NCBI RefSeq assembly: GCF_031851795.1
Contig: NZ_CP134696.1
Location: forward strand, 558,001 to 622,000
DNA: 64,000 nt
Direction of reading: 5' to 3'
DNA from: Pontibacter sp. G13
GTDB taxonomy: Bacteria > Bacteroidota > Bacteroidia > J057
The position numbers were made by a program, and so were the translations under genes. Shown one piece after another: positions 53,938 to 63,986 of this stretch (position 1 is its first letter; each line of letters starts with the position of its first letter). The notes beneath the pieces are model-generated. The model saw only the letters and a program-made list of their open reading frames with translations, had not been told where the DNA came from and ran no database searches.

Positions 53938-54588
53938 ATGGAATTGGCGAATTTCACCCAAGCCCTGCTACAACACCATGAAATCACATTGCCTGAATCG
54001 GTCCCATCCCAAGAGGAGGGAGACGATCTTCGCGCATTGGCACACCTTCATGCAGCATGGCAACAAGACCAGAAGCGACTCCCCGGTCCCATTCCGGATT
54101 TCGAGCCGCAATCAGCCCTCTGGGGGGTGAGGATGGTGCTCCATGCCGCCTATGCCCTACTCCATCGTGAAGTGTCTGAAAATCAAGTAAAGGAATGGCT
54201 TTCGGTTCCTTTGCCCAATCATTCACATTCGGCTTTACACTCCGCTGATCTGGCTTTCAGATATATCGGAAACGTGGCCACACGATCCCAGATCTTGGCA
54301 TCAGCAGATATTCTCACTCAGACCATCCGCGAATTAGCAAACATCACCTGTCTGAGCGCTCCATTCGTGCCAGCATCCAATCCAGATATTTCCCCGGTAC
54401 TCGCTCACCAAACCCTTCGGTACCTATACATCGACCGTGTGGTGGAAACCCGCAGGCTCGATCTTGCCAGACATCCAGAACTGACTCCCTTGCTACTCCA
54501 AAGACTTGGCCTTCACGCGGATAGCTATTGGCCCAACATCATCCAACTATTGAAACATGACCCAGATTACCTCCCAGACCCAACCTGA
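53938..54588 (+). CDS. Helical protein of the MoxR-vWA-propeller operon, unknown
   Basis: This 216-residue protein is predicted largely alpha-helical (ANFTQALLQHHE, ALWGVRMVLHAAYALLHREV, HQTLRYLYIDRVVETRRLDL) with no membrane segment, signal peptide or catalytic motif seen. It is the first gene of the five-gene operon and overlaps the MoxR ATPase gene by 32 bp, implying coordinated production. In computationally described MoxR-vWA-beta-propeller systems, variable accessory proteins labelled with bpX names occupy this sort of position; whether this protein matches one of those families I cannot confirm. Confidence 0.75.
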   Translation: MELANFTQALLQHHEITLPESVPSQEEGDDLRALAHLHAAWQQDQKRLPGPIPDFEPQSALWGVRMVLHAAYALLHREVSENQVKEWLSVPLPNHSHSALHSADLAFRYIGNVATRSQILASADILTQTIRELANITCLSAPFVPASNPDISPVLAHQTLRYLYIDRVVETRRLDLARHPELTPLLLQRLGLHADSYWPNIIQLLKHDPDYLPDPT

Positions 54589-55720
54589 CTTTTCGCTGGT
54601 CTCCTCCCTTCAGGCAGTGCTTGACGATATCAAATCCGCTTTCGTAGGCAAAGACGAAATCGTGGACCTGATGGGAGTATGCTTGGTGGGTCGAGAGAAT
54701 CTTTTCCTCCTAGGCCCTCCCGGCACCGCCAAATCAGCCCTGGTACGGGCACTTTCCGAGCGACTCAACGGACAATCCTTTGAATATCTCCTGACTAGAT
54801 TTACGGAGCCCAACGAGCTGTTTGGACCTTTTGATATCCGCAAACTCAGAGAGGGCGAGCTAGTCACCAATACTGCGGGCATGCTCCCAGAGGCGACTCT
54901 TGTATTCCTCGATGAGCTCTTGAATGCCAATAGCGCCATTCTGAATAGCTTATTGATGGTCCTCAATGAACGGATATTTGTCCGGGGTCAGGAACGCAAA
55001 AAGCTACCGGTCCTCATGACCGTCGGGGCGAGTAACCATCTGCCTGAAGACGATGCATTGAAAGCCTTGTTTGACCGATTCCTGCTGCGCGTTCGATGTG
55101 ACAATGTAGACCCGACCGAGCTTCGCCAAGTGCTACAGGCAGGCTGGCAATTGGAGCATCGCAATCTGGAGCAATCCCCAGAAATATTTGCGGATCAAGT
55201 CCGACAGCTCCAAGCATGGATTCCCCGTGTAGACCTCTCCCCAATTTTGGATGCCTATCTTCAGCTAGTCCAACAACTGAGGAATGTCGGGATTCCCGTA
55301 TCGGATCGACGTGCCGTGAAACTACAACGCATGATCGCTGCGAGCGCCTTGCTGTGCCACCGGTTGGAAGCCGAAATCTCCGACCTGTGGGTTCTGCGGT
55401 ACATCTGGGAGACTGAAGACCAAATAGAAGTCGTCAACTCGATTGTCCAATCCACCCTATCTGCTATTCCTTCATCAGACACGGCCCATCCTCGGTCTCA
55501 TCGAGTAACCGTACCAGATCCAGATCAACTCTACGCGGAGATTATGGAAATCCAACAGGCTTGGGAATCTCCCGAGACGGACGCCGGCACCAAAAGTCTC
55601 TTGAAAGATCGTTTGAGACATGTAGGTAATCGCGCTGAATGGATCACCAATTCCACTCAACGCGCCTATCTCCAAGATCCGATCGATCAGTTGTGGAACC
55701 AAATCTTGGCTGAAGGATGA
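54557..55720 (+). CDS. MoxR-family AAA+ ATPase
   Basis: This 387-residue AAA+ ATPase has Walker A GPPGTAKS (53-60), Walker B LVFLDE (115-120), sensor 1 Asn160 in VGASN, an arginine-finger candidate Arg174 in LFDRF and sensor 2 SDRRAVKL (249-256). The residues 180-240 form the family's extra helical region, close to the RavA subgroup. MoxR ATPases act as chaperone-like remodellers, usually with a vWA protein, and the vWA-containing gene two positions downstream is the likely partner. The C-terminal 80 residues are charged and helical. It overlaps the next gene by 4 bp (ATGA). Confidence 0.93.
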   Translation: MTQITSQTQPDFSLVSSLQAVLDDIKSAFVGKDEIVDLMGVCLVGRENLFLLGPPGTAKSALVRALSERLNGQSFEYLLTRFTEPNELFGPFDIRKLREGELVTNTAGMLPEATLVFLDELLNANSAILNSLLMVLNERIFVRGQERKKLPVLMTVGASNHLPEDDALKALFDRFLLRVRCDNVDPTELRQVLQAGWQLEHRNLEQSPEIFADQVRQLQAWIPRVDLSPILDAYLQLVQQLRNVGIPVSDRRAVKLQRMIAASALLCHRLEAEISDLWVLRYIWETEDQIEVVNSIVQSTLSAIPSSDTAHPRSHRVTVPDPDQLYAEIMEIQQAWESPETDAGTKSLLKDRLRHVGNRAEWITNSTQRAYLQDPIDQLWNQILAEG

Positions 55721-56418
55721 GCAGGCGATGGCTGATTCATATCGAGGCTGCTGTCTGGCCCAGTTTGATACGTTGGAGAACGCATCCAGCATTGGAAGCC
55801 GCCCAGATCGGTGAAAGCTACTGGGTAGCCCATCAGGAGTGGAGCGAAAAAGTCCCCAAGATTTTGCTGCAAATCCCAAATGATGGGGTATTCTATCTGG
55901 ATGATCGCCGGCGGCTCTTTCCCATGGAAGGCATTACGCCCGTAGGCACGATGCCCAATTTGAATTGGCAATCTCTTCAAGCACTATTCCCGATTGACGT
56001 TCCAACCGCCTCCCTGCCCGGACAGGGAATTCAGCCCGTCACGCTCCAGCTAATCGCAGATACCGCCTGTCCTGCGCCCAATGCCCTTCTGATCGAGGAG
56101 GATCATTGGGACACATTCCTCCAGACAGCCCCTGCTTTCAAGCTCGCCAAATGGGAATACGCACGTTCTAATACGAAGCAGATTCTTGTGCTTGGCGCCC
56201 CACTACCTCCTCTACCGGGCACCAGTTATCACAGAAGCGGGCAACTGCTCATCCCAACAGGTTGGCGGTTCCAGACTCCCGATCTCGCCGGCTTGTTTGA
56301 AGCTCAGGCAGTTCCCATGGGATTGGGATTGGCACTGGTTCACCCGGATGGAAACTGGGAACACATCTCGTTGATGGACATTCTGCCTGTATCCCGAAGC
56401 CTCAATCCCAAGCCCTAG
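55717..56418 (+). CDS. Unknown protein of the MoxR-vWA-propeller operon
   Basis: This 233-residue protein has no recognised catalytic motif. It mixes strands and helices (KILLQIPNDGVFYLDDRRRLFP near 50-70, a proline-rich middle, ILVLGAPLPPLPG near 160, GLGLALVHPDGNW near the C-terminus). It sits between the ATPase and the vWA protein, with a 4-bp overlap upstream and a 3-bp gap downstream, so it is almost certainly co-expressed and probably an adaptor. Resemblance to the bpX accessory domains of ternary systems is suspected from context only. Confidence 0.72.
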   Translation: MSRRWLIHIEAAVWPSLIRWRTHPALEAAQIGESYWVAHQEWSEKVPKILLQIPNDGVFYLDDRRRLFPMEGITPVGTMPNLNWQSLQALFPIDVPTASLPGQGIQPVTLQLIADTACPAPNALLIEEDHWDTFLQTAPAFKLAKWEYARSNTKQILVLGAPLPPLPGTSYHRSGQLLIPTGWRFQTPDLAGLFEAQAVPMGLGLALVHPDGNWEHISLMDILPVSRSLNPKP

Positions 56419-56421
56419 ACC

Positions 56422-58809
56422 ATGGATTTCTCAGATCAACTGCAAACTGTCATCGACTATTTTCGCCTGCCTGACACCTTTTTCCTCAAGAGCGACAAAA
56501 GGTGCGAAAGCCTTTTTTCGAGGGAAGGTGCGCCCAGATTCGAGATGCAGTTTGAGAGCTTTTTCGATTTTTCGGAAAAATATCCCGGATTGATCTCTCC
56601 GCATTTTGGAGGCCTCATGATGCTGTTTGTAGTGAGCGATCCCGTCTGGTCCCAAATCGACATCCAGCGCAAATTTAGACTTGAAACTCCGGAAGGAGGT
56701 CCCAATGTGATCCAGCGGCAACTGCGAAACAACGACGAACTCCACGCCAATTGGGATCATGTCATGAATTGGCTCGAACGGTACCATCGGTGGACACAAG
56801 CCCACTCAGGTTCGCAGTGGGAGGTTGTAGCACAATTGGCAGAATTGCTTCCTCAAATAGAAGAACAGCCACTGAGAGACTTGGCCTTTACCTTCCATGC
56901 AGAATTGTTCCAGACTACCCGGACGTTGGAATTTGCTGGCCCCACCTTGTCAGAATTCTACCAAAGCCTCATTCCTGCGTTGAACGGACTTTCCCAGATG
57001 TTGCCAGACCAAGCGGCATTTGACGAATTCTTTGCCACCGGGGGTGCAGAGCCTATTCCAGAACCAGAGCTCGAGCTTCCCCTCCCTGACATTTCCGGCG
57101 CAGAAGTAAAGTTGGCCACACAGCTCAAGCAAGATCAACAGACCGCCGCCTTGGGGCACTTTTTCGAACATTTGCAGGCTGGGCTCAAGATCGCACCTTC
57201 CCGTAAGCTCCCGCAACAAGAGCGCGTTGGCGGCGTGATGGACCTGACCAATCGTGGCAATCTGGATCAACTTCTCATCAGCGAATGGGCAAATGACGAC
57301 CATACCCTGATGGCTCGACTGGTCAATCAAGAAGCGCTTTACCTCAACCGAGAAACACCGCCCTCCATTCCCAGCACCCGCAGAATCATGCTGGTGGATG
57401 GCTCCATTCATCTTTGGGGTACGCCGAGACAATTGGCGCTTGCCTCAGCTCTGGCGCTCTGGAACGAACAAGAAGATGCTGAGATCCATTTTCTGCATCC
57501 TTTGGGGAATGTACCTGTCCACGAAGGCCCTGTCGACCATCTCAAAGAAATTCTCGGGCAACCCAATCCCAATCTCCACAGTGGGCAAGAGCTGCTAGCC
57601 TTTATGATGGATCGAACCCATCAAGAAGGTCTGGAATGGGTCTACCTCACCTGTGAAGCAACCCAGCGAATTCCAGCACACATGGCAGCCCTTGACCAAA
57701 TTCGGGACAAGATCCACCATTTGATCTACTGCGAACGAGACCTTTCGGTGAAGCTGTTTGAGCTTAAAGGGGGCAATCCGATTTTGAAGCAGACTCTGGT
57801 TTTGAGCGAGCCACCCGAATCCTTGCAAGCACCGGAAAAAACTCCCTCAGTGCCTCCCAGTAGCTCTAAGGAAGATCCATTTCGGCTATTGGTACCGTTG
57901 GACACCTCATTGTTTGCCAAGAAAATCGCCCAAAAAGGGAGCGAAGGGAGATTGTTATTTCAAAAGCATGGACAAATCTGGATGGCCCAAAACGAGGAGT
58001 CTGGAGCCTTTCCCATCGATGTCACCTGCGACATGAATTGCCGAGATTTCGCCTTCCTCGAAGCCACAGATTATATCAGGATTGCAGTACGAGTAAGCCC
58101 CAGAATCCTGTACATCATCCATGTGGACAAAGAGACACTCAAAGGCAAAGTCCTCAGACGCAACCACTTGCCGGAATCCAGCTTTTACAGACTCGAAGCC
58201 TCCACCATTGGATTCAAAGTCGGCACGGATCAAGAAAGCATCTACTTTGATTTGAAGGGGGAATTGATGAATTCCAAACAGGTGAACTTGGCTTTCAAAC
58301 CCATCGAGCATCCATATACCACCGCCCGAGACATCCGGAAATATCTAGCGGCTGTCACACGGAAAGCCAAAGCCAGTCATGTTGCATTTCAGGAACATGA
58401 TGGCCTGTACATTGATGGACAACTCCTTCATTTTCCCAAACAAGGCCGAATGCTCTGGTGGCGGGCACACCATCACCAGCACGTAAAAGGACGGAAGCAC
58501 TTTGGGAATTTTGCCGGTCCCAAGGAGGCGCCATTTGCATTCCGTGAGGCGACGATTGGACGATACATTCACGTCAAATTCTATGAAGCGGGACTGATCG
58601 AATTCAAAGTTGATCATCCATCCGTCCCCGATCTGCAGATTCTTACGCCGCTGAGTACACACACGGCTCTTTGGGTAGGTGATCTCGACCCCGAACATCC
58701 GGGATATTACTATGGCAATCAGGCGTATTTTCGATATGATCATGTGAGAAAAATCTCATACGAGGATCTGGTAGCCAAATTCTGGGGACCCCTCAATTCA
58801 CTCTTCTAA
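56422..58809 (+). CDS. Degenerate vWA plus probable beta-propeller protein
   Basis: This 795-residue protein has a helical N-terminal region (1-200), an acidic Pro/Glu linker (205-225), then a vWA-like domain at about 270-445 introduced by RGNLDQLLISEWAND. The metal-binding strand reads RIMLVDGSIHLWG, where the classical D-x-S-x-S is D326-G-S328-I-H330; the third residue is His, so the site is degenerate. After a Ser/Pro/Lys linker (465-485), residues 490-795 consist of repeated four-strand-like units (RLLFQKHGQIWMA, GYYYGNQAYFRYDHV), consistent with a beta-propeller. No export signal is visible. It is the presumed vWA partner of the MoxR ATPase two genes upstream. Confidence 0.83.
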   Translation: MDFSDQLQTVIDYFRLPDTFFLKSDKRCESLFSREGAPRFEMQFESFFDFSEKYPGLISPHFGGLMMLFVVSDPVWSQIDIQRKFRLETPEGGPNVIQRQLRNNDELHANWDHVMNWLERYHRWTQAHSGSQWEVVAQLAELLPQIEEQPLRDLAFTFHAELFQTTRTLEFAGPTLSEFYQSLIPALNGLSQMLPDQAAFDEFFATGGAEPIPEPELELPLPDISGAEVKLATQLKQDQQTAALGHFFEHLQAGLKIAPSRKLPQQERVGGVMDLTNRGNLDQLLISEWANDDHTLMARLVNQEALYLNRETPPSIPSTRRIMLVDGSIHLWGTPRQLALASALALWNEQEDAEIHFLHPLGNVPVHEGPVDHLKEILGQPNPNLHSGQELLAFMMDRTHQEGLEWVYLTCEATQRIPAHMAALDQIRDKIHHLIYCERDLSVKLFELKGGNPILKQTLVLSEPPESLQAPEKTPSVPPSSSKEDPFRLLVPLDTSLFAKKIAQKGSEGRLLFQKHGQIWMAQNEESGAFPIDVTCDMNCRDFAFLEATDYIRIAVRVSPRILYIIHVDKETLKGKVLRRNHLPESSFYRLEASTIGFKVGTDQESIYFDLKGELMNSKQVNLAFKPIEHPYTTARDIRKYLAAVTRKAKASHVAFQEHDGLYIDGQLLHFPKQGRMLWWRAHHHQHVKGRKHFGNFAGPKEAPFAFREATIGRYIHVKFYEAGLIEFKVDHPSVPDLQILTPLSTHTALWVGDLDPEHPGYYYGNQAYFRYDHVRKISYEDLVAKFWGPLNSLF

Positions 58810-58819
58810 TGCCGCAACC

Positions 58820-61567
58820 ATGACGCTCAACCTGATCCCTTCCGTCCAAAAGCATCACGAAGTGTCCGGCGCATTCCTGACCGGAGATGATCCGCATTTG
58901 TGGCTGCTGCAAATGGCTCAGTGGAACATCCGGCTCAACCAGCTCTCGGGATACCCCATTCCCCAAAGTCCAGCTGACAGAAGCATTGCAGGATTATTTG
59001 TGACGTTTCCAGAAGGCCATACGATTCCACTTCACCTGATCCCTTATCCTTTCCGATCCATTGGTCACAAGGTCCACGTTCCCTTGGATGGCGAATTGTA
59101 CCCACCTGTTACGCCTGAAGAATTGGATCGATTGATCCTGTGGGAAGTCCAGTGGGTCCATCCGCATTTGGGATGGGTAGGATTTGGGCCAGAGGATGCT
59201 ATCCGTTGGAGTTCCCTGGTTACCTTGCCCGAACCACTTGAACGATCTTGGACAGAAGCGGTCGATGCGGAGGAGGATTTGGGATTAAAACGAACGTTCA
59301 AACTACCTCCTATCACGCTCGAAAGCATGATGGCAGGCTTGAGTCGGTCGATTGCTGATGAATCCACCGAAGCCCAACCGATCTCGCCGGATCAATTGGA
59401 AGGGTGGGACAAGCTGAAATATTGGGGATTGGATCTGATGCAGGATATGGTGAATCAGATCCCTGAGGACGATTCTCCCGATAGTATCAAGAAACGCCTT
59501 ACAGATTGGCTTAATGGCGAAAAAACGACCCTTGGCGAACAGGCTTCCAAGTCCTTGGCCTATTTGCAACACCTCCTCGAAAACAATCCCGCCGAGGCCC
59601 TCAAATATGCTTTGCCACTCTCCCAAAAGCCCAAAAATCGAGGAGAAACGAATTGGGACGGGGGGCTGAATCGACGCTCTGGCCTGTTCAACTTAGGGGA
59701 TCTCGGAGGCGGAGGCAAGGGTTCTACCACCTACTTGCCGGATGATGAATATTCCAAGCTCCGGAGACAGTATGTAAAATTGGCACAGGAAGCCATTCAG
59801 GAAGGGAATTATCGCCGGGCGGCCTATATCTATGCGCATTTGCTGGAGCAATACGGACTTGCCGCCCAAGCACTACGCCAAGGAGCCTATTACCGAGAAG
59901 CTGCCATTCTTTACCAGACCAAGTGCAACAATGACTCCGAAGCAGCGGCATGCTATTCGGAAGGCGGTATGCATCAAGAGGCAGCAGAAATCTACCTCAA
60001 GCTCAATCGCAGTGAAAAAGCTGCGGATGAATACCTCAAAATGGGGGATGCAATCTCTGCGGAAAAGCTCTATCGGGCGCTTATCGAAGCGGCCAAGCAA
60101 AAAAAGAATCCCCTGGAAGTCATCCGGTTGCTGGTCGATAAATTGGAGGAACCCGAAGAGGCGATCGTCTACGGAATGCAGAGTTATCGGGAACGGTCCT
60201 TCAGACGGGAACTGACGCTCCCAATGACCAAGCTCATCCATGCACACATGCCCGAGGAGGATTGGTATTCCTACACCTACCAAATGTACGCCATCTGGGT
60301 AGCCGAAACTCAGGAGCCTTTGCTGGAGGAAGCTGCTCGATCCCTATTGAGTACCCTTACTTGGGCCGTGAAAAAAGGGCTTGGACCCGAAAGTCAGCAG
60401 TCATTCACGGATTTGGCGATCCAGATCATTTCCCATCAGCTTCAAGCGGGGAGATCTCAGCATGCCAATAAGCTGAAAACTTTCATGGTTCCAGATGCTC
60501 GGCTCGAACATGATCTCGGCCAGGCAAGGAAACAGATCAAACCTCCGGCTAAGTCCACCAAGTCCTTTGCCAAGCTCGATCCCACCGTTCAATGGATCCA
60601 CTTGATTGAACATGGGCAGGTTTTGTTTGCCTTGGGGTTGAAGCAATCACAACTGATTTTGGCGAGGATTTCCCCCTTCGGACAGCAGGAAGTCAATTAC
60701 CAGCCTTTGCCAGATAAAGCGCAAAGTGGATTTCCCTATCGCCTATTCCGGACCCCTCGGTTTGCCAAACAGATCTTCCTTTGGGGCGATGATACATTCA
60801 AGGGATTGGGGATTTCGCTACCAGCCTCCAAGGGCAATGAATTTGTACAGATCAGCCGACCGGGCTGGTTGAACTACGACATCTTGGGCCTTCGAAGCTC
60901 GGACCGCAAAACTTATGAAATCCTCTCGATGGAAGAGGACGAGGTGACTTTAAGTACCATCTACATTTCCTCGGGAGATCAATTCCTTCACGAACAGGAA
61001 GTAGCTCACGATCAGTTCATGCTCGATCAACCCTATGAGAAGCCACCGGGCCCCTTGGTCAGGAAAGATGAAATGCTCTTTTATCTCGAATCGGACAAGG
61101 AACTGATCTGCTACCACGAGGACGAAAAATTCCAACGCTTCTCGGTGGGATATGAGGGCAAGCTTTCACACATCGAGGGACATTCCAGTGTGTATCATGA
61201 ACGGATTTGGCTCAGCCGGAAACACGAGGTGTTTGAGATCACTCCTTGGAATCACCATGATATGATCTATCGTCTTCAGGATATTCCGGTGAATTGGCCC
61301 ATGAATCAAGTCCCGCAGGAAGATCTAACTTGGAGAGCCGGCAACCAATCCAATATCTTTCTGGGATTTGGGGAATCCTTCCTTTGCTGGGCCAAGATGG
61401 AGAAACAAGATGAGATGGAAAGCCTCAAAGTCGGCAAAGTCTGGTTCTGGGATCAGGAGATTTTCGATGTACGCCCCATCCATATCCGCAATGAATTTGT
61501 GGTGATGTTTCGCGATGGAAGCCTCCGTCTGTTGGCGACGACCAAACGGGGGGTTCCTGCTCCATAA
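58820..61567 (+). CDS. Large multidomain protein with TPR-like repeats and C-terminal propeller
   Basis: This 915-residue protein, 10 bp after the vWA gene, ends the operon. Residues 1-140 form a mixed domain (HEVSGAFLTGDDP, WEVQWVHPHLGWVGFG) that I place tentatively with the bpX6-type domains of ternary systems. Residues 300-305 are a Gly-rich hinge (DLGGGGKGS). Residues 310-430 are helical repeats of TPR/SLR type with Ala and Tyr at regular spacing (AIQEGNYRRAAYIYAHLLEQYG, EAAACYSEGGMHQEAAEIYLKL). Residues about 590-915 form repeated strands compatible with a second beta-propeller (QLILARISPFGQQ, HERIWLSRKHEVFEITPW, FVVMFRDGSLRLLATT). The likely role is a scaffold or sensor for the ATPase complex. 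No signal peptide is seen. Confidence 0.8.
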   Translation: MTLNLIPSVQKHHEVSGAFLTGDDPHLWLLQMAQWNIRLNQLSGYPIPQSPADRSIAGLFVTFPEGHTIPLHLIPYPFRSIGHKVHVPLDGELYPPVTPEELDRLILWEVQWVHPHLGWVGFGPEDAIRWSSLVTLPEPLERSWTEAVDAEEDLGLKRTFKLPPITLESMMAGLSRSIADESTEAQPISPDQLEGWDKLKYWGLDLMQDMVNQIPEDDSPDSIKKRLTDWLNGEKTTLGEQASKSLAYLQHLLENNPAEALKYALPLSQKPKNRGETNWDGGLNRRSGLFNLGDLGGGGKGSTTYLPDDEYSKLRRQYVKLAQEAIQEGNYRRAAYIYAHLLEQYGLAAQALRQGAYYREAAILYQTKCNNDSEAAACYSEGGMHQEAAEIYLKLNRSEKAADEYLKMGDAISAEKLYRALIEAAKQKKNPLEVIRLLVDKLEEPEEAIVYGMQSYRERSFRRELTLPMTKLIHAHMPEEDWYSYTYQMYAIWVAETQEPLLEEAARSLLSTLTWAVKKGLGPESQQSFTDLAIQIISHQLQAGRSQHANKLKTFMVPDARLEHDLGQARKQIKPPAKSTKSFAKLDPTVQWIHLIEHGQVLFALGLKQSQLILARISPFGQQEVNYQPLPDKAQSGFPYRLFRTPRFAKQIFLWGDDTFKGLGISLPASKGNEFVQISRPGWLNYDILGLRSSDRKTYEILSMEEDEVTLSTIYISSGDQFLHEQEVAHDQFMLDQPYEKPPGPLVRKDEMLFYLESDKELICYHEDEKFQRFSVGYEGKLSHIEGHSSVYHERIWLSRKHEVFEITPWNHHDMIYRLQDIPVNWPMNQVPQEDLTWRAGNQSNIFLGFGESFLCWAKMEKQDEMESLKVGKVWFWDQEIFDVRPIHIRNEFVVMFRDGSLRLLATTKRGVPAP

Positions 61568-61590: not shown

Positions 61591-61621
61591 AATTAGCCAC
61601 ATGAACATTTCATGTGGCTAA
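61591..61621. terminator. Bidirectional terminator ending the operon
   Basis: The 13-bp arms ATTAGCCACATGA (61591-61603) and TCATGTGGCTAAT (61609-61621) match perfectly. It separates the operon from the convergent beta-glucanase genes and can serve both strands. Confidence 0.92.
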
Positions 61622-61657
61622 TCCTTCCTTACCAAAATTTTTGAGAGAAACTAAATA

Positions 61658-62941
61658 TCAAACGATTCTAAGCCAGTTGATCGAACAGGTACCAGATTGC
61701 TGGACCAGTCTGATCGTATGTTTGCCTTCAGTAAGGTCCAAGGATGTGGTGGCTGTACGCCAGATGAAATCCTGTTCGGTGCTGGGAAGAGGAATGGTCG
61801 TCTGCACATTTCCATCCACCCATATTTCCAATTCCGAATCAGCAAAACTCGCATACCGGATTTCCAGCGTAAAGTCTTTGCTTCGATCCATTTCCACCTG
61901 ATACTCCACCCATTGGTCAGTGAAGAAATTGTACAACTCCAACGACTCGTTGGGCGCCTCGGTCGTCACCCTCACTTGAGGCCCTCTAGACCACCCTTCG
62001 ATCCCCACAGCCTCTGAAACACTGATATCGCTGTAATGCTCTGCCTCGATGGTCTGTTGCTCGACATAGAAGGTTTCCTTGTCAAGCGTTGACATCTGAG
62101 TGTAGATCTTACCCAGTGCTGTGAGACTCACATTGGCGGAATTTTCCAGGAGGAACATGTAGGGGAAATTGTCCGCACTGCCATTTCCACGAGGAATAAA
62201 CCATGAATAGCGAAAGATCCGAGGATCGCTTTCCAGATAGTTGAGGACATCGGCCATAAAGCGCTCCTGACTTTCTGGAGTAACGGGGCCATCCCATGCA
62301 CAGAATTCAGTCAGCCAGATAGGCTTGCCGTACTTGTCAAATCGATCCAGAAAAGCCTTCAAAGAACCGGGGCTGGTCATATAGCAATGAACGGCAATCC
62401 CTTCAACGTCACTCAAGGGAACCAATTCAAAGAATTCATCCAGCCAAACGATGGGGTCTTCATAGCCTTCCAACGTCCCATAATTCATCGCCGGGGAAAT
62501 GATCTTGAGACCGTGTTCTTCCGCGGCAGCCTTCACATCGGGCCAACGCTCCGCCGCTACTTCCGGCGTGATATTGGCCTGATCGACCAGATTGGGTTCA
62601 TTGAATGCCAGCAGATATTCGCAGTCTGGATTCCGTGATATATATTCCGATAGTAGCTGCGTATTGATGCCATTCCAGGCCATGGGGCAAAAATCGATTT
62701 CATACCGATCCATGGCGGGCCCCAAGGCACTATTTTGGGAAGGTCTCCAATTGTAGGACCAAGAAATACCGGGCGCGAGCGCATCGATATCTTGCTCAAA
62801 TTGGAACCCAAATGCTACGCCCCGCTTCACGCTACGCTGTTGGACGACAGGTTCGCGGGGGACATAGTGGTCCTCATGCCCGTTGGAACACGAGGACCCT
62901 ATCAATACTGCTATTAGGAACAAGCTCTTGGGGATGCGCAT
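61658..62941 (-). CDS. GH128-like beta-1,3-glucanase with C-terminal CBM6
   Basis: This 427-residue lipoprotein candidate (signal ending IGSSC) has an Asl1-type glycoside hydrolase domain of family GH128 at about 40-270. FAFNEPN-like sequence AFNEPNLVDQ supplies the acid/base Glu, WLTEFCAWDGP the nucleophile Glu, and WSYNWRP the substrate-facing aromatics. Residues about 290-425 match CBM6, a beta-sandwich that binds beta-glucans, ending with CSINWLRIV. It lies 1 bp after the GH16 gene, so the two form an operon for beta-1,3-glucan breakdown at the cell surface. Confidence 0.88.
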   Translation of the reverse strand: MRIPKSLFLIAVLIGSSCSNGHEDHYVPREPVVQQRSVKRGVAFGFQFEQDIDALAPGISWSYNWRPSQNSALGPAMDRYEIDFCPMAWNGINTQLLSEYISRNPDCEYLLAFNEPNLVDQANITPEVAAERWPDVKAAAEEHGLKIISPAMNYGTLEGYEDPIVWLDEFFELVPLSDVEGIAVHCYMTSPGSLKAFLDRFDKYGKPIWLTEFCAWDGPVTPESQERFMADVLNYLESDPRIFRYSWFIPRGNGSADNFPYMFLLENSANVSLTALGKIYTQMSTLDKETFYVEQQTIEAEHYSDISVSEAVGIEGWSRGPQVRVTTEAPNESLELYNFFTDQWVEYQVEMDRSKDFTLEIRYASFADSELEIWVDGNVQTTIPLPSTEQDFIWRTATTSLDLTEGKHTIRLVQQSGTCSINWLRIV

Positions 62942-62942
62942 G

Positions 62943-63986
62943 CTATTGCAATTGGTAGACTCGGATGTAGTCTACTTCGTATCGCACAGGCACATCGAAC
63001 ATGCTGTCATCGACTCCCTGTACTCCGCCCCATGATCCACCGATCGCGAGGTTGAGGATAAAGAAGAAGGAGTCATTGAATGGCCAGTCTCCCGCATTGG
63101 CGAGCTGGGCAGTCTCAGCAAATGTCTTGGTCTTCACACCGTCCACGTAGATATGGATTCGGTCTAGACCCATGAATTCTTTTTCGACCCATTCCATGGT
63201 GATCACATGGAACTCATCTGCCACATCGTAGCCCATATCTTGGCTTCCGTGTTGGTTTTGTCCATTCATGCCGTTTTTGTTGGCAGAATGCAAGGCACAA
63301 TGAAAAAGCTGAGGCTCATATCCGACATGCTCCATGATGTCGATTTCACCTGCCTGAGGCCATGATCCATAGCCCAGCATCCAGAATGCCGGCCAAGTAC
63401 CGCGGCCCTTGGGCACTTTGAGTCGAGCTTCTACTCTCCCGTATCGGATGTCCTTCTTGTCCTTGGTGATGATTCTAGCAGAAGTGTACTGCTTGCCGAG
63501 GTAATCTTCCTTGTGGGCTTCGATGACGAGCTTGCCATCTTCCAGTCGGAGGTTCTCTGTGCGATCCGTGTAGTATTGCAGCTCGTTGTTTCCGCCGCCG
63601 CTGCCATTGACCTCATAGGTCCAATTGTCCAAATCCAGTGTAGTTCCGTCAAATTCTTCTGCCCAAACCAATTCGTAAGTTCTGCCTGGGACATGAACTA
63701 CACATTCGGCAGTTTGCTCGCCTAGCTTGGCCGTGATGGTCGCTGTTCCGCTGCCATTGGCTGTAACAGTTCCGAAGAAGACGGACGCCACATTTTCATC
63801 GCTGGAAGACCATTCGATGGATTCGCCAGTGGCAGGGGCTTGAGTGACCGTGATGGTGGTCTTTTCGCCAAATGGAAGATCGATGGCAGACTGGTCTAGT
63901 TCCAGTTGAATGTTGGTCCCATCATTCCCACAGGAGAGCAAGAGCAGCGGGAGGGAGATCAGGAGTATGTTAAGCACCTTATTCAT
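62943..63986 (-). CDS. GH16 laminarinase-type lipoprotein with Big_2-like domain
   Basis: This 347-residue endo-beta-1,3-glucanase of glycoside hydrolase family 16 has the catalytic signature GEIDIMEHVG (E-x-D-x-x-E) near residue 213 and WPAFWMLG before it, typical of laminarinases. A lipoprotein signal (LLLLSC) and one Big_2-like beta module (about 25-95, IDLPFGEKTTITVTQ...WSSSDENVASV) precede the catalytic domain. It would act outside the cell, hydrolysing laminarin into oligosaccharides. ATG 63986 is 14 bp from the window edge, so the promoter is not visible and earlier operon genes may exist. Confidence 0.93.
   Translation of the reverse strand: MNKVLNILLISLPLLLLSCGNDGTNIQLELDQSAIDLPFGEKTTITVTQAPATGESIEWSSSDENVASVFFGTVTANGSGTATITAKLGEQTAECVVHVPGRTYELVWAEEFDGTTLDLDNWTYEVNGSGGGNNELQYYTDRTENLRLEDGKLVIEAHKEDYLGKQYTSARIITKDKKDIRYGRVEARLKVPKGRGTWPAFWMLGYGSWPQAGEIDIMEHVGYEPQLFHCALHSANKNGMNGQNQHGSQDMGYDVADEFHVITMEWVEKEFMGLDRIHIYVDGVKTKTFAETAQLANAGDWPFNDSFFFILNLAIGGSWGGVQGVDDSMFDVPVRYEVDYIRVYQLQ

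Follow-up and report, generated by a model that had tools for sequence, protein, structure and literature searches.

Beta-propeller-type MoxR-vWA ternary systems were predicted computationally by Kaur et al. (2020; PMC7159879), who placed them in subsystem 4 and proposed that they act in biological conflict. According to that description, a GXXXTAKS P-loop is frequent, but not strict, in the MoxR ATPase (bpMoxR), a subset of the vWA domains lacks one or both aspartates of the metal ion-dependent adhesion site (MIDAS), and the vWA protein strictly carries a C-terminal propeller of about four blades. The third component typically combines a TPR region with a propeller, and a membrane-spanning segment in its N-terminal half was described without being called strict; among the linked accessory proteins, one is helical and the others are alpha+beta. 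The same authors proposed propeller-mediated pairing of the two large proteins, and they had already reported an L7/L12 insertion. This study examined a five-gene operon (genes 1 to 5) in a 64,000-nucleotide stretch of Pontibacter sp. G13 (contig NZ_CP134696.1, positions 558,001 to 622,000; the whole stretch is hereafter called the window), which a sequence-only reading had matched to these predicted systems. That reading knew of no experimental function for them, and our literature searches, with most subscription journals outside their coverage, found no experimental work on the propeller type either; two other papers (PMC10910872 and PMC12282271) refer to MoxR-vWA ternary systems without mentioning this type. 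We report that the operon is nearly certainly a system of this type, with five conserved components here, and we give an even chance to its acting as a modular, ATP-reset sensor or switch for biological conflict.

The match to the predicted systems held, because Pfam named four of the five proteins, assigning bpX4, bpX2, and bpX3 to genes 1, 3, and 5 and bpMoxR, together with AAA_5, to gene 2 (Table 1). Genes 1 and 3, previously left as a helical and an alpha/beta unknown, now carry family names. The five open reading frames (ORFs) lie on the forward strand and span positions 53938-61567, and their spacings from gene 1 to gene 5 (a 32-bp overlap, a 4-bp overlap, a 3-bp gap, and a 10-bp gap) confirmed that neighbors overlap or lie no more than 10 bp apart. 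For comparison, we used the best 80 of at least 544 loci ranked by MoxR similarity in GTDB species genomes and 20 regions from further genomes. A gene 1 homologue was present in 94 of these 100 fetched loci, duplicates counted; the duplicate loci L071, L128, and L131 were excluded from later counts, and L057 and L067 were also excluded from the flank counts. The order bpX4, bpMoxR, bpX2, gene 4, gene 5 was conserved in 79 of the 82 complete loci, as the co-occurrence proposed by the sequence-only reading would have it, and the three exceptions were L125 (by our reading an over-extended ORF only), L113 (gene 1 not found), and L134 (genes 3-5 missing). Because the order of the homologues is conserved and the ratio of nonsynonymous to synonymous substitution rates (dN/dS) is well below 1 for all five, these ORFs are genes and not chance frames. 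The operon is real and intact, and within this locus set the "ternary" system is in practice a five-gene unit.

Gene 2 matched the Pfam bpMoxR family far above the cut-off of 27 bits (337.9 bits, E 1.8e-101). In an alignment of 13 MoxR sequences, the motifs that we take to be Walker A (GPPGTAKS), Walker B (DE), GASN, and DRF were all invariant, and the P-loop conforms to GXXXTAKS in 13 of 13; the earlier assignment of a MoxR AAA+ ATPase with intact NTPase motifs was thereby upheld. The Pfam cut-off is loose, since 386 of the 395 genomes of the class pass it, and only 13, the window's genome included, exceed 329 bits, the next match lying at 191 bits. At its score, bpMoxR is a single copy in its own genome, and one copy was found in each of 47 genomes chosen for having the system. 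The next best protein of the window's genome, with 179 bits to bpMoxR, is a second MoxR ATPase in a 597-codon frame (L035; G000:C1:3442503-3443114), which is probably RavA-like. NCBIfam models gave sub-threshold AAA+ matches only on gene 2, and the RavA equivalog model scored 168.8 bits against a curated cut-off of 681.

Gene 4 itself had no Pfam match, the VWA models included. Among its orthologues, bpX0 near the N-terminus and bpX1 near the C-terminus were found in all 10 that were scanned, 4 of which also carried an L7/L12 C-terminal domain; read by orthology, the architecture of gene 4 would be bpX0, vWA, beta blades, and bpX1. An AlphaFold2 (AF2) model built on a 79-row alignment (A2) gave a predicted local distance difference test (pLDDT) value of 78.8 and a predicted template modeling (pTM) score of 0.46, with a helical N-terminal part, an alpha/beta domain of the vWA kind at 320-460, beta strands at 499-765, and a C-terminal helix. 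Residues G270, G271, G279, E288, A290, R299, E304, and E311 were invariant in 79 of 79 sequences. The MIDAS is degraded. Of the 79 sequences, all retain D326, 72 have K or R as the third ligand (the window has H there), and 15 keep D at position 411, to which we assigned the second aspartate and where the window has C. The Rossmann elements at 320-460 and the loss of aspartates thus agree with the subset of vWA domains described by Kaur et al. (PMC7159879). Where the same description has a C-terminal propeller of about four blades, the propeller matches of the model fell mainly at 490-631. Compared with known structures, residues 492-643 matched WD40-type propellers over approximately three blades (Z 11.8, root-mean-square deviation [rmsd] 3.1, 127 residues), whereas a PDB profile search returned nothing useful (best E 0.65). 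Comparison of the component regions with hhalign yielded one pair above the reporting threshold, the beta region of gene 4 and the propeller of gene 5 (probability 67, E 5e-5). The sequence-only reading had proposed a degenerate vWA domain with a probable propeller; the vWA-like fold and the degraded MIDAS stood, and the propeller is only partial in the model.

Gene 5 matched bpX3 at residues 3-150 (E 8.8e-35), and its AF2 model, built on a 67-row alignment (A3), had a pLDDT of 82.4 and a pTM of 0.57, the linker being of low confidence. The TPR-like solenoid and the propeller expected by the sequence-only reading were both present in the model. In the VIA comparison, which covers one domain per protein, the propeller matched with a Z of 19.0 and an rmsd of 3.4 over 285 residues, and we consider it a complete, C-terminal, and well-supported predicted propeller. 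Structure prediction, suggested earlier as a check, therefore returned a propeller in gene 5 and a partial one in gene 4. With bpX3, a solenoid, and a propeller, gene 5 has the makeup described for the third component. The hydropathy scan revealed no clear membrane helix in gene 5 of the window (highest 19-residue value, 1.12); a strongly hydrophobic stretch (19-residue value above 2.0), situated in the linker, occurs in 30 of 78 gene 5 proteins, the window's among the 78. In one relative (L056:1964-5761), the gene 5 homologue is 1265 aa long and fills the linker columns with 533 residues, versus 155 in the window. In the Chitinophaga loci L089, L096, and L110, gene 5 is split into three ORFs or stops early, and its relatives are full length; these broken frames are either sequencing errors or decaying genes.

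The gene 5 profile also matched the TPR region of IFT144/WDR19 (E 3.6e-7), which we read as a shared repeat type and not as kinship, and the propeller resembles those of RIC1, clathrin, and many others. Protocoatomer proteins have the propeller N-terminal to the alpha solenoid. In gene 5, the solenoid (306-575) precedes the propeller (578-910). We rejected coat-protein membership, which the IFT144, clathrin, and coatomer matches had raised, because the domain order is reversed and the propeller and TPR matches are generic.

Compared with the propeller systems of Kaur et al. (PMC7159879), the operon shares the GXXXTAKS bpMoxR, the divergent vWA domain, the TPR-propeller third component, and helical and alpha+beta accessory proteins, which by Pfam assignment and conserved order would be bpX4 and bpX2; like those systems, it is found in Bacteroidota and Planctomycetota. 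It differs from them in that the third component of the window is without a clear membrane helix and gene 4 is without the L7/L12 insertion. In addition, the most divergent block in close relatives is the beta block of the vWA protein, not the N-terminal domain of the third component. With the VMAP ternary systems (Kaur et al. 2020; PMC8195603; PMC10907252), the operon has in common a MoxR-vWA core with a constant third component and a variable recognition part; unlike in those systems, no VMAP, peptidase, or EAD domain was found among the Pfam matches of the five window proteins.

The best 80 loci belong mainly to Bacteroidota (Chitinophaga, Hymenobacter, Flavobacterium, Niastella, Pedobacter, and Saprospiraceae), with four titled Planctomycetota and one titled Thermoanaerobaculia. 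On the MoxR tree, the last of these, L113, falls close among Bacteroidota rows, and its contig is possibly misbinned. Presence is patchy; within one genus, bpX2 occurs in 9 of 121 genomes, a count that includes the centre genome. The loci fall into two subtypes, with or without the gene 5 propeller. In the gene 5 alignment, 62 of 67 rows have either a full propeller (at least 307 residues in the propeller columns) or 0-4 residues beyond the solenoid; of the other five, L052, L090, and L113 are cut at a contig end and L081 and L096 stop early. The gene 5 propeller is consequently not general to the system, and the propeller-propeller pairing of Kaur et al. cannot hold family-wide. On a midpoint-rooted MoxR tree made by a quick method, with 35 of its 93 inner branches open, the loci without the propeller formed one clade (Shimodaira-Hasegawa-like approximate likelihood ratio test 100; 35 rows, those of undetermined subtype included) plus one Hymenobacter, corresponding to two state changes. 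The window row sits on a long branch, and its placement is unsure. The Hymenobacter locus (L125:14416-16188) has no gene 5 propeller, yet its MoxR groups with Hymenobacter rows, and the loss appears to be independent. An L7/L12 insertion in gene 4 was present in 21 of 32 loci without the gene 5 propeller and in 0 of 52 with it, the window included (11 rows with undetermined gene 5 excluded; subtype labels set by hand from ORF lengths, with L089 counted as long); these cases all lie within one clade and are not independent events.

Selection and variation differed along the operon. Among close pairs (n = 9-16 by gene), the median dN/dS was 0.044 for MoxR, 0.12 for bpX4, 0.12 for bpX2, 0.083 for the vWA part of gene 4, 0.12 for the TPR part of gene 5, and 0.27 for the beta block of gene 4. 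In pairs with a MoxR identity of at least 95%, the gene 4 core had a median identity of 92.9% and the beta block one of 62.8% (12 pairs, of which a single Flavobacterium quartet supplies half), and that of bpX3 was 85.9% (10 pairs). The clearest case is Flavobacterium shii (L132) versus F. hydatis (L144): their DNA is 89-99% identical in genes 1-3 and in the first ~465 codons of gene 4. Over codons 466 to ~706 the identity is 53-60%; it reaches 68-78% over the remaining codons of gene 4 and 82-98% over gene 5. Codons 466-706 of L132 match strain CRH (L130) at 72-87%, and L130 is more distant elsewhere in the operon. This pattern is the signature of replacement by recombination, with a boundary at the end of the vWA domain. 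Hymenobacter provided a second, less sharp case, in which discordance affects both the beta block and the N-terminal part of gene 4. The Hymenobacter loci L105 and L109 are a pair of natural alleles with different beta blocks. A scan of 37 loci above the backbone threshold, fewer of which have the gene 5 propeller, found a discordant beta block in 2, a discordant bpX0 part in 1, a discordant gene 5 linker in 1, and none in the other seven regions; the backbone is the mean of MoxR, bpX4, bpX2, and the gene 4 core, and the zeros of these four are partly by construction. The part of gene 4 after the vWA domain was thus replaced as a block in two lineages of relatives. The main-text parts of Kaur et al. 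consulted mention neither the subtype split nor the mutual exclusion of L7/L12 and propeller nor a block exchange at the vWA boundary.

Table 1. Features of the operon and its closing hairpin, in window positions
Feature	Position	Strand	Basis
Gene 1, bpX4 protein, accessory component, 216 aa	53938..54588	+	Pfam PF19920, E 7e-34
Gene 2, bpMoxR AAA+ ATPase, 387 aa, P-loop GPPGTAKS	54557..55720	+	Pfam PF20030 (337.9 bits), AAA_5, AAA_lid_8
Gene 3, bpX2 protein, accessory component, 233 aa	55717..56418	+	Pfam PF19918, E 3.4e-48
Gene 4, 795 aa: helical N-terminal part, conserved core, vWA-like domain (degenerate MIDAS), beta blades, C-terminal part	56422..58809	+	Pfam matches of orthologues, AF2 model
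Gene 4 residues 262-315, best-conserved stretch ahead of the vWA domain, putative MoxR-engaging core	57205..57366	+	Alignment; role inferred
Gene 4 residues 318-460, vWA-like Rossmann domain, third MIDAS ligand replaced	57373..57801	+	Model and alignment
Gene 4 residues 490-700, beta blades, modeled as a partial propeller; block exchanged in two lineages of relatives	57889..58521	+	Structure comparison and identity scans
Gene 5, third component, 915 aa: bpX3, linker, TPR solenoid, propeller	58820..61567	+	Pfam PF19919, AF2 model
Gene 5 residues 306-575, TPR-like alpha solenoid	59735..60544	+	AF2 model, profile match
Gene 5 residues 578-910, predicted beta-propeller, about seven blades (our strand count)	60551..61549	+	AF2 model, VIA
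14-bp hairpin separating the operon from a convergent glycosyl hydrolase gene, likely terminator	61592..61622		Fold energy versus shuffles

A role in conflict is proposed for the operon because of its patchy presence and the block exchange. Several observations weigh against that reading. At 80% query coverage, a match was found in 1 of 72,556 plasmid records and in none of 50,697 phage records, and the 12 matches among viral contigs all had at most 36% identity; because of this scarcity, the system does not look mobile. Within Chitinophaga, one chromosomal context is common to nine loci (one of which bears the title [Flexibacter] sp. ATCC 35208) and a second one to five, as expected of a housekeeping locus. 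All dN/dS values are below 1, and the overall gene 4 model is weak (pTM 0.46). Block exchange is documented for two lineages of relatives only, and not for the window's own lineage, which had no close relative for comparison. No meaningful match to the anti-phage systems of PADLOC-DB emerged, the three hits being weak (IetA with E 4e-4 over 30 residues at the P-loop, mad8 with 0.041, and SduA with 0.026), and Pfam found no effector domain in the five proteins.

The most serious alternative is a dedicated assembly chaperone like NorQ-NorD, CbbQ-CbbO, or RavA-ViaA, which would remodel one host complex and whose propeller variation would track its client; we regard this as possible but rather less probable than a conflict sensor. 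MoxR-vWA pairs of known function act in this manner (NorQ/NorD, PMC9976466), and the operon resembles these systems, in which a MoxR hexamer works with a vWA adaptor. The strong purifying selection, the common chromosomal context in the Chitinophaga groups, and the rarity on plasmids, phages, and viral contigs also favor a chaperone. Unlike in the known pairs, however, the RavA model stayed below its cut-off, the MIDAS that NorD needs for its target (PMC9976466) is degraded here (the third ligand being K or R in most sequences), and no client gene recurs. Across 95 loci, no conserved client gene was found beside the operon: the commonest flanking family occurred in 15 of 95 loci, and the most widespread in 10 of 95, over seven genus labels. 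A chaperone also fits poorly with patchiness even inside one genus and with an adaptor whose beta block is replaced whole between close relatives.

A stress module linked to RNA repair and translation, which would detect damaged RNA or stalled translation and hold or clear the machinery until repair, is unlikely. Support for it comes from the neighboring genes, although the families were chosen after the flanks had been seen and the P values are uncorrected. KptA (PF01885) lies within 15 kb of the operon in 3 of the 38 genomes having it, against 0.2 expected (P 0.001, post hoc). In Flavobacterium, the neighbors include genes for an RNase T-type exonuclease, a calcineurin-like phosphoesterase, a Band 7 protein, and RNA ligases (RLIG1; Rnl2 type), and in genus g38, ORFs clustering with the exonuclease, phosphoesterase, Band 7, and Rnl2-type ligase stand on the other side. 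The L7/L12 C-terminal domain in gene 4 of most propeller-less loci would suit such a module as well. Against these points, the wider RNA_ligase test revealed no excess (1 of 27 genomes within 15 kb), the sole KptA gene of the window's genome is far from the operon, 5.4 Mb along the contig, and the window's subtype is without the L12 domain. From the gene neighborhoods, we treat the RNA-repair link as a lead only. Two KptA-bearing clusters stand beside a bpX system (L093:5418-9298 and L060:2-5313), and that of L093 also holds a calcineurin-like phosphoesterase, DUF4291, and a gene resembling nicotinamide phosphoribosyltransferase by eye; both are possible NAD/RNA-repair clusters.

In Flavobacterium and Pedobacter, genes near the operon encode a WGR protein and a protein whose SWIM match falls just short of the Pfam cut-off. 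PF20103 (DUF6493), which occurs in one type of these WGR proteins, was within 15 kb in 5 of the 14 genomes having it (expected 0.09); these are four Flavobacterium and one Pedobacter, so that by genus there are two events (P 0.004, again post hoc and uncorrected). A composite reading, in which specificity would be set by an exchangeable block of the vWA protein that recombination swaps between strains on a constant ATPase-adaptor chassis, similar to the exchange of specificity domains in other defense systems, and in which the system would guard RNA or translation, the propeller-less subtype docking translation factors through L7/L12 and working with the RNA-repair and WGR/SWIM neighbors, strikes us as improbable. 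In Niastella, three same-strand genes follow 46-87 bp downstream of the operon, and in the one species scanned they encode a SWIM protein, DUF5691, and a second MoxR-type ATPase (L082:17077-20960; ORFs of the same clusters occur in L077 and L078). We take this cluster to resemble the yehLMPQ-type cluster of E. coli, and it is possibly a second MoxR system coupled to the first. In Pseudoflavitalea (L076:4907-8281), Pfam identified a vWA, PP2C, and kinase trio upstream, presumably TerY-P, and the same three clusters occur in L092, a Chitinophagaceae bin.

In the window, the operon has as neighbors an MscS channel, a fatty-acid-hydroxylase-like protein, and glycosyl hydrolases. Two glycosyl hydrolase genes converge on it from the minus strand (61658-63986), one with Glyco_hydro_cc and CBM6 and the other a GH16 with a Big_2 domain. 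The hairpin at 61592-61622 folds with -24.2 kcal/mol in a 106-nt stretch (z = -4.0), and 0 of 200 shuffles were equally stable; a terminator consensus scan did not list it. The sequence-only reading had called it a bidirectional terminator. A stable hairpin is indeed present, but because its T-rich tail (TTTCTTTT) occurs on the minus strand only, termination for the operon's own strand, and with it the bidirectional label, is doubtful.

The remaining alternative, an ordinary structural or trafficking complex of the envelope built as a coat-like solenoid and propeller with no sensing role, is very improbable, because the IFT144/WDR19, RIC1, and clathrin resemblances of gene 5 and the hydrophobic linker helix of many relatives are outweighed by a domain order opposite to that of coat proteins, the absence of the propeller from one whole subtype, and the patchy presence.

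Returning to the operon as a sensor or switch for conflict, we started from what is established, namely family membership, gene order, folds (in part for gene 4), conservation, patchiness, and block exchange in relatives, and from these we infer the sensing role, the contacts, the ligand, the output, and the role in conflict; our confidence in the resulting mechanism is moderate. The bpMoxR ring would use ATP to load, reset, or open the vWA protein of gene 4, which it would contact at the conserved stretch 266-333, just before and within the degenerate vWA domain. This contact is proposed because of MoxR-vWA precedents such as NorQ-NorD, in which the vWA domain was fitted in the center of the hexamer and a vWA "finger" was suggested to reach into the pore (PMC9976466). 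The part of gene 4 after residue 465, comprising the blades and bpX1, would be the main recognition module that meets the ligand. Gene 5 would serve as a solenoid scaffold holding the complex, probably membrane-anchored in many relatives, and would add a second propeller in the window's subtype, with bpX4 and bpX2 as constant partners of the ATPase-adaptor pair. Binding of the ligand, probably a protein or ribonucleoprotein signaling invasion or damage, would change the assembly, and the changed assembly would contain or disable the target without an enzyme effector; the lack of a recognizable enzyme effector suggests action by assembly or sequestration.

For the family, these findings indicate that the two large proteins need not both carry a propeller, which argues against propeller pairing as a general rule. 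They also point to the part of gene 4 after residue ~465 as the block most likely to contact the ligand, and the block-swapped natural alleles of environmental bacteria make specificity directly testable.

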